From the IMG/VR virus record IMGVR_UViG_3300028417_000015, positions 1-28,121 of that record: a DNA stretch of 28,121 nucleotides; one strand, 5' to 3'. The notes beneath the pieces were generated by a model, which saw only the letters and a program-made list of their open reading frames with translations, made no database searches and had not been told where the DNA came from. Below are positions 7,497 to 27,539 of this stretch, in pieces (the first letter of the stretch is position 1; each line of letters starts with the position of its first letter). Source of the stretch: a virus. A program made the position numbers and the translations under genes.

Positions 7497-9089
7497 ATGA
7501 CTCAGCTTGTCGATCAATACGGTCGCCCGATCAAAAAGCAGGAACTCGTTAAGGAGCTAGCAGGGCCAAGCCTCACCGGAATCCGCACGATCTGGACCGA
7601 CACAGTCGCTTCGGGCCTCACGCCATACAGCCTGGCCGAGATCCTGCGCTCTGCGGCCGATGGTGATCATTACGCCTACCTCACCTTGGCCGAAGAAATG
7701 GAAGAGCGCGAACTCCACTACGGTGCCGAGCTTGGTAAGCGCAAACTGGCAGTGAGCCGCCTGCCGATTTCAGTCGAATCGTACAGCGATGAGCAGAAAG
7801 ATAAAGATCTGGCCGATGCCGTACGGGATCTGGTGCGCAGGCCTGGCTTCCGTGGTCTTTTGAAGGATGCCCTTGACGGTCTTGGTAAAGGCTACAGCGT
7901 CACCGAGATCATCTGGGACCGTAGTGGAGAAGTATGGAAGCCGTTGCGCTACGAATGGCGCGACCCGCATTTCTTCCAGTTCGACCAGATCGCCCGCCGC
8001 GAGATCCGGCTGCGCGACGAGCAGGATCTGATGGATGGCCTGCCCCTGGAGCCCTACAAGTACATCTGCCATGTGCCAAAACTTAAAAGCGGCATTCCGA
8101 TCCGTGGCGGCCTGGCTCGCCTGGCGGCATGGGCGTTCATGTGCAAGGGCTACACGGTTAAAGACTGGCTGGCTTTCGCCGAGGTCTTTGGCATGCCGTT
8201 CCGCATGGGCAAATACCACAATGGCGCGACCCCCGAAGATATCAACGTTTTAAAAATGGCCGTAGCCAACCTCGGCAGCGATGCAGCGGCCGTGTTCCCC
8301 GATTCGATGAAGGTGGAGCTGGTCGAAGCCGCCAAGGGTGGCAGCCAGGCTTTCTATAAATCCTTGGCCGAATATCTTGACGACCAGGTCAGCAAAGGCG
8401 TGCTTGGGCAAACCGCATCGAGCAGTGGCACACCCGGCAAGCTTGGGGATGAGCAGTTGCAGTCTGATGTGCGCGACGATATCCGCGATGATGATGCCGA
8501 GCAACTGGAAGAGACTCTCAACCGCGACTTGGTTGTACCGTTTATCGATCTCAACTTCGGCTCCCAGGAGAACTATCCAGAGCTGCAGCTGCGCTCGATC
8601 GAAAAAGAAGACGTTGCCGCTCTGGTTACAGCGCTGAAAGAGCTGGTACCGCTCGGTTTGAAGGTTGAGCAGAGCGTAGTGCGTGACAAGATCGGCCTGC
8701 CTGATCCAGCCAAAGATGCCAAACCTGAAGATCTGCTCAAGCCCCCTGCTGTGGCATCGCCTGAGCCGGGGACCACAGAGACAGCGGCAAACCGCGAGCA
8801 GTGTAGCTGCCCGAGCTGTGCAACTGCGCTCAACAGAGTCCAAGGGTTGTCATCAGATCCAGCCGACCTGGTTGCTGCTCGCCTCGGGGATGAATCGATG
8901 GCCACCATGGACGCCCTGATTGCGCCAATTGCCGAACTGGTCGCCACAGCCGAAAGCCTGGAGGAGATCCGCGACCGTTTGACTGAAACCTTTGATGGGC
9001 TCGACGCGGCAGAGCTTGGGGAACTGATTGGTGAAGCCTTAATGTTGGCAAACGTCTCCGGCAGAGCGGAGGTGCTCGATGAGCATTAA
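7497..9089 (+). CDS. Portal protein (DUF935, Mu gp29-like)
   Basis: 530 residues, starting one base after the terminase stop. Typical DUF935 stretches are 'YGRPI', 'LAEEMEERELHYGAELGKRKLAVSRLP', 'GKGYSVTEIIWDRSGE', 'AFAEVFGMPFRMGKY' and 'LNRDLVVPFIDLNFG'. The portal forms the dodecameric ring at one capsid vertex through which DNA enters and to which the tail joins. The C-terminal part includes 'QCSCPSC', a Cys-rich spot, and an acidic helical tail that overlaps the next gene by 11 bases. Confidence 0.9.
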   Translation: MTQLVDQYGRPIKKQELVKELAGPSLTGIRTIWTDTVASGLTPYSLAEILRSAADGDHYAYLTLAEEMEERELHYGAELGKRKLAVSRLPISVESYSDEQKDKDLADAVRDLVRRPGFRGLLKDALDGLGKGYSVTEIIWDRSGEVWKPLRYEWRDPHFFQFDQIARREIRLRDEQDLMDGLPLEPYKYICHVPKLKSGIPIRGGLARLAAWAFMCKGYTVKDWLAFAEVFGMPFRMGKYHNGATPEDINVLKMAVANLGSDAAAVFPDSMKVELVEAAKGGSQAFYKSLAEYLDDQVSKGVLGQTASSSGTPGKLGDEQLQSDVRDDIRDDDAEQLEETLNRDLVVPFIDLNFGSQENYPELQLRSIEKEDVAALVTALKELVPLGLKVEQSVVRDKIGLPDPAKDAKPEDLLKPPAVASPEPGTTETAANREQCSCPSCATALNRVQGLSSDPADLVAARLGDESMATMDALIAPIAELVATAESLEEIRDRLTETFDGLDAAELGELIGEALMLANVSGRAEVLDEH

Positions 9090-9750
9090 CGCCGCATTTC
9101 GCCTGCCGTTTCTCGAGGCGATCGCATTCTTCCGGGGCAAGACCAATATCCCCACCGAGCGCTGGGATGACCTCTGGCAAGAGCAGCACGCCAAGGGCTT
9201 CATGGTGGCCGGAGCGATCGAAGAGGATCTGCTGACTGATATGCGCTCCCTGGTCGACCGGGCGATCGACGAGGGAATTACTCTCGAAGAGTTTCGCAAA
9301 GGATTTGCCGAAACTGTGACCAAGCATGGCTGGAGCTACAACGGCAGCTTCGGTTGGCGCAGCAAGATCATCTACCAGACCAACGTGCGCACCGCCTACA
9401 TGGCCGGGCGCTGGAAGCAACTCACAGATCCAGAGTTGTTGGAGTTGAAACCGTACCTGCAGTACCGCCATGGCGACAGTCGGGTACCGCGACAGCAACA
9501 CCTGGCGTGGGATGGCCTGATCCTGCCCGCCGATGATCCATGGTGGCAAACGCATTATCCGCCCAACGGCTGGGGATGTAAGTGCAAAGTTTTTGCCGCC
9601 GGGCCGCGTGAGCTGGAACGTGCTGGCAAGAGTGATCCGGACACCGCACCGGCATCGCCTCTCGATCCGAAAACCGGAGCGCCAGTTGGTATCGGCAAAG
9701 GTTGGGCATACAACGTAGGCCAGGCGGCCTGGGACGAAACGGGAGCATAA
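9079..9750 (+). CDS. Minor head protein (Mu gpF-like, SPP1 gp7 family)
   Basis: 223 residues. The C-terminal half has the defining 'YLQYRHGDSRVPRQQHLAWDG' and 'DPWWQTHYPPNGWGCKCKV' motifs of phage Mu F / SPP1 gp7 head-morphogenesis proteins (His, then PPNGWGCxC). The N-terminal helical half has 'FFRGKTNIPTERWDDLW'. A few copies are packaged per head and help prohead formation or DNA ejection. This form is short compared with Mu gpF. It ends just before the GTG of the next gene. Confidence 0.88.
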   Translation: MSINAAFRLPFLEAIAFFRGKTNIPTERWDDLWQEQHAKGFMVAGAIEEDLLTDMRSLVDRAIDEGITLEEFRKGFAETVTKHGWSYNGSFGWRSKIIYQTNVRTAYMAGRWKQLTDPELLELKPYLQYRHGDSRVPRQQHLAWDGLILPADDPWWQTHYPPNGWGCKCKVFAAGPRELERAGKSDPDTAPASPLDPKTGAPVGIGKGWAYNVGQAAWDETGA

Positions 9751-9751
9751 A

Positions 9752-10282
9752 GTGGCACCAGCAATCAAAGCCAGACTCGAAGATCGTGAAGTTCGCGCCA
9801 CTTTAAAGCGTGCAAGAGCTGCCCTGGCGGATCTCAGGCCAGCGATGCGTTCGATTGGCGAGTACCTGCTTGAAGAGACCGAGAATCACTTTCGCGACGA
9901 GCGCGATGCTGACGGTCGGCCCTGGACACCGCTTAAGGTTCGCAGCTACGCCATCGGCTTTGGCAAAAAGAAAAAGGCGACCCATACCCAGAAGGGCATG
10001 CTCACGGCAGCATTCGAGAGTTATCTGGCTGGCAAGAAGATTTTGACTGAGAGCCATGAACTGCGCGGCTCGATTCGCTACATCGCCGGGAAGTCTGTTC
10101 TCTTGATTGGCAGCAACAAGCCGTATGCAGCGATCCATCAGTTCGGAGGCATAGCCGGGCGTGGCCGGAAGGTCGAAATCCCGGCGCGGCCGTTCATCGG
10201 CATTGGTCCAAAAGACCGCCGGGAGATCCTCGGCATCGTTGGTGACTATGTGGCGCAAAAAACCGGTGCTCGGTTGGCGTGA
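9752..10282 (+). CDS. Virion morphogenesis protein (Mu gpG-like)
   Basis: 176 residues starting with GTG, one base after the previous stop; no ATG is better placed. 'LADLRPAMRSIGEYLLEETENHFRDERDADGRPWTPL' followed by 'ESHELRGSIRY' and 'YAAIHQFGGIAGRGRKVEIPARPFIGI' is the typical phage virion morphogenesis (Mu gpG / P2 gpS) pattern. The family acts in tail or head completion. Position between gpF and the protease matches Mu exactly. Confidence 0.88.
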   Translation: MAPAIKARLEDREVRATLKRARAALADLRPAMRSIGEYLLEETENHFRDERDADGRPWTPLKVRSYAIGFGKKKKATHTQKGMLTAAFESYLAGKKILTESHELRGSIRYIAGKSVLLIGSNKPYAAIHQFGGIAGRGRKVEIPARPFIGIGPKDRREILGIVGDYVAQKTGARLA

Positions 10283-10407: not shown

Positions 10408-11457
10408 ATGAGAGTTTTTGTTGAGGAAAGCCATAAAAGCGTTGTCGAGGAGCTGATTGCGGCTCTGAACGCGATAGAGATCCCGGAGGGCTGCGAGGTC
10501 ATCGCGCTCAACTTTGAGTTGCCGTCCGACGGTTCGGTACCGGCGATGATCGAACTGATCCAACCGGGGATGGAAATTGTCGGCCGGGATGGTCGGCAGT
10601 GGATAAACGACAAACCACAGGCGGTGGTTGACGCACTGAATGCCACTGGCGTCGACCTGGTGATCGACTTTGAGCATGCCACCGAGCTGAAGGCTCCAAA
10701 TGGCGAGAAGGCTCCCGCTGCCGGGTGGGTTAATGGCTTTGAAGTTCGTGATGGTGGTGCCGTTTGGGGCGAAGCCTCATGGACACCAGCAGGCCAAGAG
10801 GCGGTTGCCAATCAGGAGTACCGCTATTTAAGCCCTGTGCTGCTGTTTGAAAAAATATCCAAAAGAATTCGTTCGCTCTCCAGCATCGGGCTGGTCAATA
10901 AACCGAACCTTTTTAACACGGCGCTTAACCGCCAACAAACCCCAGCAGAGGAGGTAAAACCCATGCTGAAGAAACTTCTGGCAAAGCTCGGCCTGGCCGA
11001 GTCCGCAACCGAAGAGCAGGCGTTGAACGCTCTCGGTACCCTGCAGACTGACCTGCAGACCGCTCTTAATCGGTCGGAAACCCCAAGCCTCGACAAGTTT
11101 GTGCCGCGCGATGATTACAAACTGATGGAGACCAGGGCTCTCAATGCCGAGCAGAAGCTGGCAGATGGTGTGAAAGCCGAGCTTGAAACTGCGATCAATG
11201 CCGAAATCGACGCGGCACTTAAGGCTGGCAAGATTACCCCTGCCACCAAGGACTACCACATCGCTATGTGTCGACAGGAAGGCGGGCTCGAAAGCTTCAA
11301 AACGTATGTCGCGGCCGCTCCAGTGGTTGGTGATCCATCCGACCTGGGCGGTAAAGACCCAGGCGATGGCGGCAAAGCCATGAACGCTGAAGAGCAGAAC
11401 ATCGCCGATCAGTTCGGCAACTCCGCCGAGGATCTCAAAAAATACGGCCAGGCCTAA
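10408..11457 (+). CDS. Head maturation protease with C-terminal scaffold (Mu gpI-like)
   Basis: 349 residues; ATG follows CATGGAGGTTAA. The N-terminal 180 residues fit Mu protease I: 'LPSDGSVPAMIELIQPGMEIVGRDGR' (where SPAPDWIQLLP-type sequence is usual), 'DLVIDFEHAT' with a conserved His, 'PAAGWVNGFEVRDGGAVWGEASWTPAGQEAV', and 'YRYLSPV'. Residues 186-349 are helical, Ala/Glu/Lys-rich and form a scaffold. The enzyme trims the scaffold during prohead maturation. An internal start for a separate scaffold is listed on its own. Confidence 0.88.
   Translation: MRVFVEESHKSVVEELIAALNAIEIPEGCEVIALNFELPSDGSVPAMIELIQPGMEIVGRDGRQWINDKPQAVVDALNATGVDLVIDFEHATELKAPNGEKAPAAGWVNGFEVRDGGAVWGEASWTPAGQEAVANQEYRYLSPVLLFEKISKRIRSLSSIGLVNKPNLFNTALNRQQTPAEEVKPMLKKLLAKLGLAESATEEQALNALGTLQTDLQTALNRSETPSLDKFVPRDDYKLMETRALNAEQKLADGVKAELETAINAEIDAALKAGKITPATKDYHIAMCRQEGGLESFKTYVAAAPVVGDPSDLGGKDPGDGGKAMNAEEQNIADQFGNSAEDLKKYGQA
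10963..11457 (+). CDS. Nested in-frame capsid scaffold (Mu gpZ-like)
   Basis: Within the protease gene a strong internal Shine-Dalgarno (AGAGGAGG, 10947-10954) stands 8 bases before an in-frame ATG at 10963 and would give a 164-residue protein starting MLKKLLAKLGLAESA. The product equals the helical C-terminal domain of the protease ORF. Mu makes its scaffold gpZ from exactly such an in-frame internal start in gene I. The site is visible; use of the start is inferred. Confidence 0.75.
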   Translation: MLKKLLAKLGLAESATEEQALNALGTLQTDLQTALNRSETPSLDKFVPRDDYKLMETRALNAEQKLADGVKAELETAINAEIDAALKAGKITPATKDYHIAMCRQEGGLESFKTYVAAAPVVGDPSDLGGKDPGDGGKAMNAEEQNIADQFGNSAEDLKKYGQA

Positions 11458-11495: not shown

Positions 11496-11915
11496 ATGAC
11501 CTTATTAACAGCTGACCGCAGCACGAATCGTTCGGCAGGCGTCGAGCACATCGACCCCGTCGCCGCTGCCAAGAAGATCTTCGCTGGCAGCATTGTCTGC
11601 CTGGATGCCTCCGGCAACGCTACCCCGGGAGCCGCCGCGACCACTCTGACCGCTCGCGGGGTTGCCCAGGAGCAGGTCGATAACAGCGCTGGCAGCGCTG
11701 GTGATCTCACCGTGAGATCCCGCACGGGCGTTTTCCGCTTTGCCAACAGCGCCTCGACCGACCTGATCAGCCGTGCCGAAATCGGCGACGACTGCTACAT
11801 CGTCGATGATCAGACTGTCGCCAAAACGAATGGCACAAGTTCCCGTTCGGTGGCAGGAAAGATTGTAGACCTCGACAGCTACGGCGTTTGGGTTCAGATC
11901 GGCATCAGCAATTAA
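11496..11915 (+). CDS. Head decoration/cement protein
   Basis: 139 residues with GGAGG before the ATG. The sequence is beta-rich with Ala/Gly/Thr and no Cys-rich motif: 'AGVEHIDPVAAAKKIFAGSIVCLDASGNATPG', 'ARGVAQEQVDNSAGSAGDLTV', 'TGVFRF' and 'GDDCYIVDDQTVAKTNGTSSRSVAGKIVDLDSYGVWVQI'. This is the pattern of DUF2190-like capsid cement proteins located between scaffold and major head genes. It would trim and stabilise the outside of the capsid after expansion. The exact family is assigned by pattern and position. Confidence 0.78.
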   Translation: MTLLTADRSTNRSAGVEHIDPVAAAKKIFAGSIVCLDASGNATPGAAATTLTARGVAQEQVDNSAGSAGDLTVRSRTGVFRFANSASTDLISRAEIGDDCYIVDDQTVAKTNGTSSRSVAGKIVDLDSYGVWVQIGISN

Positions 11916-11952
11916 CCCGCAATTAAACCACTTTTAAACGGAGGATTATATC

Positions 11953-13005
11953 ATGAGAAAACTGTTTACTTTCGGGAGCTGGCTCTTGCTGCTGGTTGCG
12001 GCGATCGCAATGTTCCCCATGGCCGCCATGGCCAACGTGCCGGACTCCGGCATAGCTGTTCTGCCGTTTGCTGGCCTGGCTGGCCTGATTGTCAACAAGT
12101 CCAACCTGACAGCAGTTTTTATTAACCTGAAGACGACTTTCAACAAAGCCTTTGAGGGTGCGCCGTCGACCTGGGAGAAGACCACGATGAAGGTCCCCTC
12201 TGGATCGAGCCAGAACGATTACTCCTGGTTGAGCCGTTTTCCCAAAATGCGCAAATGGTTGGGGAGCAAGGTCCTTAAAGCCCTCTCGGCGTTTAAGTAC
12301 ACAGTTGTCAACGACGATTACGAGGCCACGGTTGTTGTGCATCGTAACGATCTTGAAGACGACAACATCGGCATCTATGGCCCGATGGCTCAGGAAGCCG
12401 GGTTCTCGTCGAAGCAACTCCCGGACGAGATCGACGCCGACCTTAAGAACGGCGCTTTCGCTAACGAGTGCTACGACGGCCAGTACTTTTACGACACCGA
12501 CCACCCGGTTGGTGATGGTGAGGGCGGCTCTAGCAGTTACTCCAACCTGTCGACAGCGGTTCTTTCGGCGGCAACCCAAGCGTTAGTCTTAGCCAGTTAT
12601 GGGGCGGCGCGTACCGCGATCATGAAGGTCACCGACGATGAAGGTCGCCCGCTGGCCCTGGTTCCGAATCTGCTCGAAGTGCCTCCGGCGCTTGAGGCTA
12701 CCGCCAGAATGATCGCCTACAGCGATAAACTGGCCGACGACACGCCGAACCCCTACAAGGGCACCTGTGAGGTGTTGGTGAATCCTCGTCTCACTTCCGA
12801 TGTTAAGTGGTTCCTGCATGTCACCAACCGTCCTCTCAAGCCGTTCGTCTATCAGGAGCGTAAAAAGCCTGTTTTCGTCTCCCAGACCGGTATGGACTCC
12901 GACGACGTGTTTGATCGGGCCGAGTACAAGTTCGGTGCTGAAGCGCGTGCCGCTGGCGGTTATGGCCTCTGGCAGCTTTCCCACGGTTCCACTGGTGCTG
13001 GTTAA
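11953..13005 (+). CDS. Major head protein (Mu gpT-like) with signal-peptide-like N-terminus
   Basis: 350 residues. From about residue 45 the protein follows Mu gpT: 'LIVNKSNLTAVFINLKTTFNKAFEGAP--WEK--MKVPS', 'YSWLSRFPKMRKWLG', 'YEATVVVHRNDLEDD', 'FYDTDHPVG'. Residues 1-27 do not belong to that family: MRK, then a hydrophobic run, then AMA before N28, just like a Sec signal peptide. The ATG 11953 has a strong GGAGG (11940-11944) and the later Met codons (20, 23, 26) have none, so the leader appears to be translated. gpT builds the icosahedral shell. The leader may be cut off by the phage protease or bring assembly to the membrane. Confidence 0.88.
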   Translation: MRKLFTFGSWLLLLVAAIAMFPMAAMANVPDSGIAVLPFAGLAGLIVNKSNLTAVFINLKTTFNKAFEGAPSTWEKTTMKVPSGSSQNDYSWLSRFPKMRKWLGSKVLKALSAFKYTVVNDDYEATVVVHRNDLEDDNIGIYGPMAQEAGFSSKQLPDEIDADLKNGAFANECYDGQYFYDTDHPVGDGEGGSSSYSNLSTAVLSAATQALVLASYGAARTAIMKVTDDEGRPLALVPNLLEVPPALEATARMIAYSDKLADDTPNPYKGTCEVLVNPRLTSDVKWFLHVTNRPLKPFVYQERKKPVFVSQTGMDSDDVFDRAEYKFGAEARAAGGYGLWQLSHGSTGAG

Positions 13006-26777: not shown

Positions 26778-27539
26778 ATGTCAAAACCAATTATTCCGTG
26801 GATCGGAGGCAAACGCCGTCTGGCCAAGCATATTCTGCCGTTGTTACCGGCACACACATGTTACGTGGAGCCGTTCTGTGGGGCGGCAGCAATCTTCTTT
26901 TTAAAGGAGCAGTCAAAAGTCGAAGTGATTAACGATATAAATGGCGATTTGGCCTGCTTGTATCGTGTGATCAAAAATCACCTGGAAGAGTTCTGTAGGC
27001 AGTTTAAGTACATTTTAGTGAGCAGGCAATTATATAGCTGGATGGGTGATACCCCACCTCATGTTTTAACAGATATCCAGCGAGCAGCCAGGTTCTACTA
27101 TTTGCAGAAGATGGGTTTCGGTGGACGGGTGGACGGTCGGACATTTGGTGTCGCAACAACAAGTCCGCCTCGCTTGAATTTACTGCGCATGGAGGAGGAT
27201 CTTAGCCAGGCGCACTTACGGTTGACTCGGGTGTATATCGAGAGCCTTGATTGGCTGGCCTGTATCAAGAAATACGATAGGCCCGCGACACTCCATTACC
27301 TCGATCCACCTTACTGGCAAACCGAAGGCTACGGTGTGCCATTTGAATACGATCAGTACGAGGAGATGGCTCGGGTGATGAGAGAGATGAAAGGCAAATC
27401 AGTGCTAAGCATTAACGATCACCCTGATATACGTGAAACGTTCAAGGGCTTCACTATGCAGTCAGTCGCAATAAATTATACTGTTGGCGGGGCTGGCAAG
27501 GGGGCCAATCGGCGGGAGTTGATAATACAGAACTGGTGA
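26778..27539 (+). CDS. DNA adenine N6-methyltransferase, D12 (Dam) class
   Basis: 253 residues with GGAGG (26763-26767) 10 bases before the ATG. 'PWIGGKRRL' (7-15) and 'VEPFCGAAAIFF' (30-41, FxGxG-like cofactor motif) with 'LDPPYWQTEGYG' (catalytic DPPY at 176-179) define a D12-class enzyme. It transfers methyl from S-adenosylmethionine to adenine N6; the target site cannot be read from the sequence. No restriction gene is adjacent, so it is an orphan. It occupies the right-end place of Mu's mom, which also protects phage DNA by modification. Confidence 0.88.
   Translation: MSKPIIPWIGGKRRLAKHILPLLPAHTCYVEPFCGAAAIFFLKEQSKVEVINDINGDLACLYRVIKNHLEEFCRQFKYILVSRQLYSWMGDTPPHVLTDIQRAARFYYLQKMGFGGRVDGRTFGVATTSPPRLNLLRMEEDLSQAHLRLTRVYIESLDWLACIKKYDRPATLHYLDPPYWQTEGYGVPFEYDQYEEMARVMREMKGKSVLSINDHPDIRETFKGFTMQSVAINYTVGGAGKGANRRELIIQNW

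Follow-up and report, generated by a model that had tools for sequence, protein, structure and literature searches.

The window, by which we mean the whole 28,121-base stretch of virus record IMGVR_UViG_3300028417_000015, carries a standard Mu-like head operon in which portal, F-like protein, I-like protease and decoration protein lie upstream of the capsid gene, the single such gene found in a gpT search of the record. This gene (ORF 11953-13005, + strand) encodes a 350-residue Mu gpT-like major capsid protein, the core of which matches Pfam PF10124 from residue 53 (E 8.6e-85) and PHROG 371 (phrog_371) from residue 46 (E 8.1e-95), and residue 1 of the solved Mu gpT (9jod) aligns to the start of this core. 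A sequence-only reading had placed the usual Mu gpT start at about residue 45, and these three alignments confirmed it: the standard N-terminus corresponds to residue 45 of the window protein, a CTG codon (12085-12087). The 44 residues ahead of it, MRKLFTFGSWLLLLVAAIAMFPMAAMANVPDSGIAVLPFAGLAG, form an N-terminal leader. The window protein belongs to the Mu gpT family, which is already known; the leader is a new variant. The features of the locus are:

7497-9089: portal
9079-9750: F-like protein
9752-10282: virion morphogenesis protein (tail_S)
10408-11457, + strand: Mu I-like prohead protease (PF10123, E 7.8e-58), candidate for the junction cut
11496-11915, + strand: decoration-type virion structural protein (phrog_1731, E 7.9e-49), directly upstream of the capsid gene
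11940-11944, + strand: Shine-Dalgarno GGAGG for the leader ATG, with an 8-nt spacer
11953-12084, + strand: N-terminal leader, residues 1-44 of the major capsid protein
11953-11979, + strand: n-region MRKLFTFGS, net positive
11980-12015, + strand: h-region WLLLLVAAIAMF, mean hydropathy 2.76 over 12 residues
12025-12033, + strand: A25-M26-A27, signal-peptidase-I-like site, predicted cut after A27
12034-12057, + strand: linker NVPDSGIA, acidic, without K or R
12058-12084, + strand: Gly-rich segment VLPFAGLAG, weakly hydrophobic, with the [GA]-G junction motif at its end (from column counts)
12085-13005, + strand: core of the Mu gpT-like major capsid protein (L45-G350 and stop), HK97 fold (PF10124, phrog_371, Foldseek 8rkx and 9jod)

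In order, the leader comprises MRK, a hydrophobic stretch, A25-M26-A27, a linker of acidic character and a junction rich in Gly. The signal-peptide-like character that had been read into residues 1-27, with MRK, a hydrophobic run and an A-M-A end, is indeed present in the sequence (MRKLFTFGSWLLLLVAAIAMFPMAAMA), and the leader shows the positive n-region, the h-region and the small residues at -3 and -1 of a Sec signal peptide. In an AlphaFold model of the window protein (68-row alignment, pLDDT 87.6), a helix spanning residues 2-20 is followed by a low-confidence coil at 26-42, which includes the linker, then by the N-arm helix at 49-69 and the HK97 core. Foldseek searches with this model returned the JBD30 procapsid (8rkx) and the Mu capsid (9jod) on top, followed by HK97 proheads and encapsulins.

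Two segment orders are seen among gpT capsids, A-B-C in the clade of the window and A-C-B in Mu and JBD30 (PDB 9jod, 8rkc). The A-C-B order, found in 13 of the 274 fetched proteins (L264-L274, L277, L278), has its two C-terminal segments of about 65-70 residues swapped, in what looks like a permutation inside the HK97-fold A domain. Near the right end of the record, the start of ORF 26778-27539 resembles that of a Dam-type DNA adenine methylase.

Occurrence and translation of the leader

Five viral-contig scans and one genome-contig scan yielded 340 capsid loci encoding 274 distinct proteins. A leader of 34-57 residues is present in 83 of these homologues, about 187 start directly at the core, and there are almost no intermediates. 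One remote locus (L265) was first classed as leaderless and found on inspection to carry a leader; it and L272, both members of the remote segment-swapped branch, are also leader-bearing. The signal-like leader is far more general than the reading of a single sequence could reveal.

Leader-bearing prophages also occur in isolates, namely Mariprofundus ferrooxydans PV-1, Geomonas limicola, Methylophaga thiooxydans DMS010, Herbaspirillum, Nitrosovibrio and Propionivibrio dicarboxylicus. In M. thiooxydans DMS010 the leader-bearing capsid gene is present in 12 identical copies (L149-L152, L154-L157, L159-L161), which suggests that a Mu-like prophage has recently, perhaps very recently, undergone replicative transposition; the five remaining isolate genomes searched have one gpT gene apiece. 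No second, leaderless type of capsid gene was found in the window's own record or in the six isolate genomes searched. A prohead protease gene adjoins 93% of leader-bearing and 93% of leaderless capsid genes, and among the neighbours no partner gene tracks exclusively with the leader, the best being a small gene just downstream (61% versus 37%).

Among phage-collection matches listed, every match starts at or behind the core start within a few residues, although a local alignment would not reach into a divergent leader; the capsid protein of Alteromonadaceae phage B23 is leaderless. Salinibacter phages with a sig_peptide annotated on gpT (L353 3851-4861) were rejected as further cases: the GenBank feature spans the whole CDS, the proteins have no leader, and the feature appears to be an annotation error. 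Mu-like gpT genes were also seen on plasmids of Klebsiella, Raoultella, Citrobacter, Serratia, Escherichia albertii and Yersinia ruckeri (hits H111-H125), suggesting plasmid-borne Mu-like prophages.

Several lines of evidence indicate that the leader is translated. All 83 leader-bearing homologues start the leader with an ATG preceded by a Shine-Dalgarno sequence, and none of the 83 has such a sequence at the internal core start, where leaderless relatives do have one. In the window, the strong GGAGG belongs to ATG 11953 and the later Met codons (20, 23 and 26) lack a Shine-Dalgarno sequence, just as the sequence-only reading had it; a chance GGAG accompanies only the TTG at codon 12. Of the 83 leader genes, only 36 have ATG at core position 0 and 24 have CTG, and 15 have an unlikely start codon there (ATC, CTC, CTT, CTA or ATA). 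Within close pairs the leader dN/dS is mostly below 1, with L051/L061, L163/L140 and L185/L193 changing mainly at synonymous sites; this constraint is looser than that on the core, and one pair (L032/L036) is an exception whose leader, with very few changes to count, has a dN/dS above 1. That translation begins near codon 45, the upstream frame being open by chance through a mis-annotated start or a decayed prophage, would fit with most homologues being leaderless. The Shine-Dalgarno counts and the identities of core codon 0 rule out a wrong start codon, and the leader frame is kept across unrelated phages, cultured isolates and the 12-copy prophage, which leaves such an artefact hardly credible.

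The leader behaves as an optional module. On a tree of 273 cores we counted 41 leader changes, at least 23 of them forced by well-supported branches, and on a careful tree of 71 cores 11 changes, at least 8 forced, which excludes a single clade of leader-bearing phages. The similarity of leaders correlates weakly with that of their cores (r 0.19). Between L188, which has a leader, and L192, which has none, the cores are 97% identical, the DNA is 93% identical upstream and 91% identical from the exact core start on, and the difference is confined to the leader interval; the pair L132/L139 repeats this pattern, with 97% identical cores, 91-93% identical flanking DNA and a difference of exactly the leader. 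The sequence-only reading had held that leaderless homologues with the same, non-coding upstream DNA would count against a leader; in these near-identical pairs we found the leader DNA absent from the leaderless twin rather than present but non-coding, so the leader is not a mis-called start. As judged from trees and pairs, the leader is a module that is frequently gained or lost, cleanly present or absent. Because cores that are 97% identical occur both with the leader and without it, the same core works in either state, which is easiest to understand if the leader is removed.

Signal-peptide character and the junction

For comparisons across the family, we used a non-redundant set of 67 leaders sharing less than 70% similarity. 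Ahead of the hydrophobic segment the ratio of K/R to D/E is 137:4; on its far side it is 8:108. A 19-residue hydropathy of at least 1.6 is reached by 66 of the 67 leaders, compared to a maximum of 1.53 in leaderless proteins. An A-x-A motif occurs in the c-region of 55 leaders, against 42.5 +/- 3.3 in shuffled sequences, and Ala pairs at lag 2 are in excess over shuffles (93 versus 71); in the remaining 12 leaders, a strict A-x-A is missing from the tested window.

A fixed, strict signal-peptide rule, which we tried out on four E. coli K-12 segments of 50 kb each, where gene names defined the exported set, is passed by the window leader and by 59 of the 67 leaders, compared to 4 of 188 leaderless capsid N-termini; in E. 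coli it is passed by 15 of 23 exported proteins and 5 of 143 others. By these measures, leader sequences diverge strongly while signal-peptide physics is kept, and the statistics show selection for signal-peptide physics in the leaders.

The end of the leader is conserved as well. Before core position 0, which is M or L in 64 of the 67 leader-bearing proteins, G occupies position -1 in 62 and G or A position -2 in 59, with hydrophobic residues ahead. This [GA]-G junction coincides with the N-terminus of the leaderless relatives, and its simplest reading is that of a processing site that would restore the standard gpT N-terminus. The junction might also be read as rhomboid-like, with a hydrophobic residue at -5, a small one at -2 and another hydrophobic one at position 0. 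The second hydrophobic segment, which precedes the junction, has a mean 15-residue hydropathy of 1.40, reaching at least 1.6 in only 19 of 67 leaders, and an octanol sum near zero, below 0 in 28 of 67.

Function of the leader

We favour, with about as much belief as doubt, the reading that the leader is a cleavable membrane-targeting pro-segment that docks the capsid protein, and thus prohead assembly, at the inner membrane. Residues 1-44 would then be a genuine, translated and removable N-terminal targeting pro-segment, the signal-like part of which (n-region, helix, A-x-A and acidic linker) would engage host Sec/YidC during capsid synthesis and hold the capsid subunit at the inner membrane, with the head domain most likely remaining on the cytoplasmic side. 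Proheads would form on the membrane as they do in T4, with the tag borne by the shell subunit itself. The leader would be cut at A-x-A by host signal peptidase and/or at [GA]-G by the phage prohead protease, leaving the standard gpT N-terminus, and the same core would therefore work with or without a leader. We infer the membrane docking, the topology, the cleavage with its enzymes and the benefit to the phage from the features of the leader described above. The sequence-only reading had offered either a tether of prohead assembly to the inner membrane or a pro-segment removed by the phage protease; what stands of it is a real, translated, optional leader with Sec-type charge, hydrophobicity and A-x-A bias, together with a conserved [GA]-G junction at the standard N-terminus, as expected for pro-segment removal; docking at the membrane, a particular cutting protease and the final side of the head domain are putative.

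Topology speaks against docking. By the positive-inside rule, under which a positive N-terminus stays in and the following chain leaves the cytoplasm, a lone transmembrane helix that keeps its positive N-terminus inside should carry the head domain out of the cytoplasm. The second segment, which could turn the chain back, is weakly hydrophobic and modelled by AlphaFold as low-confidence coil. The leader would also be dispensable for head assembly as such, because leaderless relatives manage without it. A specific form of the docking reading, to which we assign a minor share of it, is a hairpin like that of M13 procoat, in which leader and second segment would insert together, the acidic linker would cross, signal peptidase would cut at A-x-A, and the capsid protein would remain N-out/C-in in the membrane until cleavage at the junction, the second cut, released it. 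The acidic linker between two hydrophobic segments and the net positive charge at the core start are in line with such a hairpin; however, the second segment is short and, as noted, weak, and the positive core start is seen in leaderless relatives too, hence not specific.

Other readings dispense with the tether. The leader could be a plain assembly pro-peptide inside the prohead, cut at [GA]-G by the phage protease, with its likeness to a signal incidental and no contact with the membrane. The junction motif lies exactly at the standard N-terminus, a prohead protease is encoded next door in 93% of loci, and the removal of an N-terminal pro-region by a prohead protease has familiar examples such as T4 gp23, yet this reading gives no reason for 67 divergent leaders to keep K/R in front, D/E behind and the A-x-A spacing, or to pass the signal-peptide rule at a higher rate than genuine exported proteins of E. 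coli; moreover, sequence-specific contacts should conserve sequence, against the weak correlation of leader with core similarity. We consider it rather unlikely. True secretion, with the capsid protein exported partly or wholly to the periplasm for a role outside the head, for example at the cell surface or in phage exclusion, would account for the physics of a cleavable Sec signal peptide, but appears decidedly improbable. The leader-bearing protein is the only gpT match in its own record and in five of the six isolate genomes, the sixth having the 12 identical copies, and heads must be made from that protein in the cytoplasm; no internal start with a Shine-Dalgarno sequence would supply a second, cytoplasmic form, and cores that are 97% identical with and without a leader show no adaptation to export.

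If docking at the inner membrane does take place, many scattered Mu-like phages may possess a secretory-type HK97-fold capsid precursor, a broader proposal that we hold somewhat more doubtful than even: Sec/YidC and signal peptidase would handle the subunit, the whole head would be built from membrane-tethered subunits, and the tag would be interchangeable and often gained or lost. An optional tag on dozens of related shell proteins hints at heads built on the cell membrane, and a signal-like shell tag that is switched on and off between near-identical relatives makes a membrane role in head assembly directly testable. Material at hand includes two natural near-isogenic pairs and the cultured lysogens M. 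thiooxydans DMS010, M. ferrooxydans PV-1, G. limicola and P. dicarboxylicus. Predictions of secretomes may include capsid proteins.

Comparison with known capsid systems

To our knowledge, tailed-phage capsid proteins have been thought to need no export signal, and in the open-access literature we found no earlier description of any HK97-fold capsid protein, Mu-like or other, that bears a signal peptide. N-terminal extensions of HK97-fold capsid proteins that are removed in maturation are exemplified by the delta domain of HK97 gp5; it comprises about 100 residues and has no signal-peptide character, unlike the leaders described here with their 34-57 residues. The major coat protein of M13, gp8 procoat, has a cleavable signal peptide, an acidic loop and a second hydrophobic segment. 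Its mature form is a tiny membrane protein, whereas the protein considered here is a 306-residue HK97-fold capsid protein that must assemble in the cytoplasm, with a weak second segment. Most of what is known of prohead assembly at the membrane concerns T4-like and some giant phages, in which it proceeds via the portal.

Closest by descent are Mu gpT (9jod) and the JBD30 major capsid protein (8rkc, 8rkx), which share the family and the HK97 fold with the window protein but have no leader and have two C-terminal segments swapped relative to it. The procapsid of JBD30 has a helical N-arm, the hook of which sits over the spine helix (PMC11445458).

The likeness to the T4 head concerns assembly. 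In T4 and SPN3US, the inner membrane is where proheads assemble, and proteolysis during maturation frees them; 65 residues are removed from the N-terminus of T4 gp23 (PMC9958956, PMC9026906). An inner-membrane prohead, an N-terminal pro-region removed from the shell protein and proteolytic release would be common to both systems. The two differ in what binds the membrane: in T4 it is the portal protein (the gp20/YidC initiator), whereas here it would be a secretion-like tag on the shell subunit.
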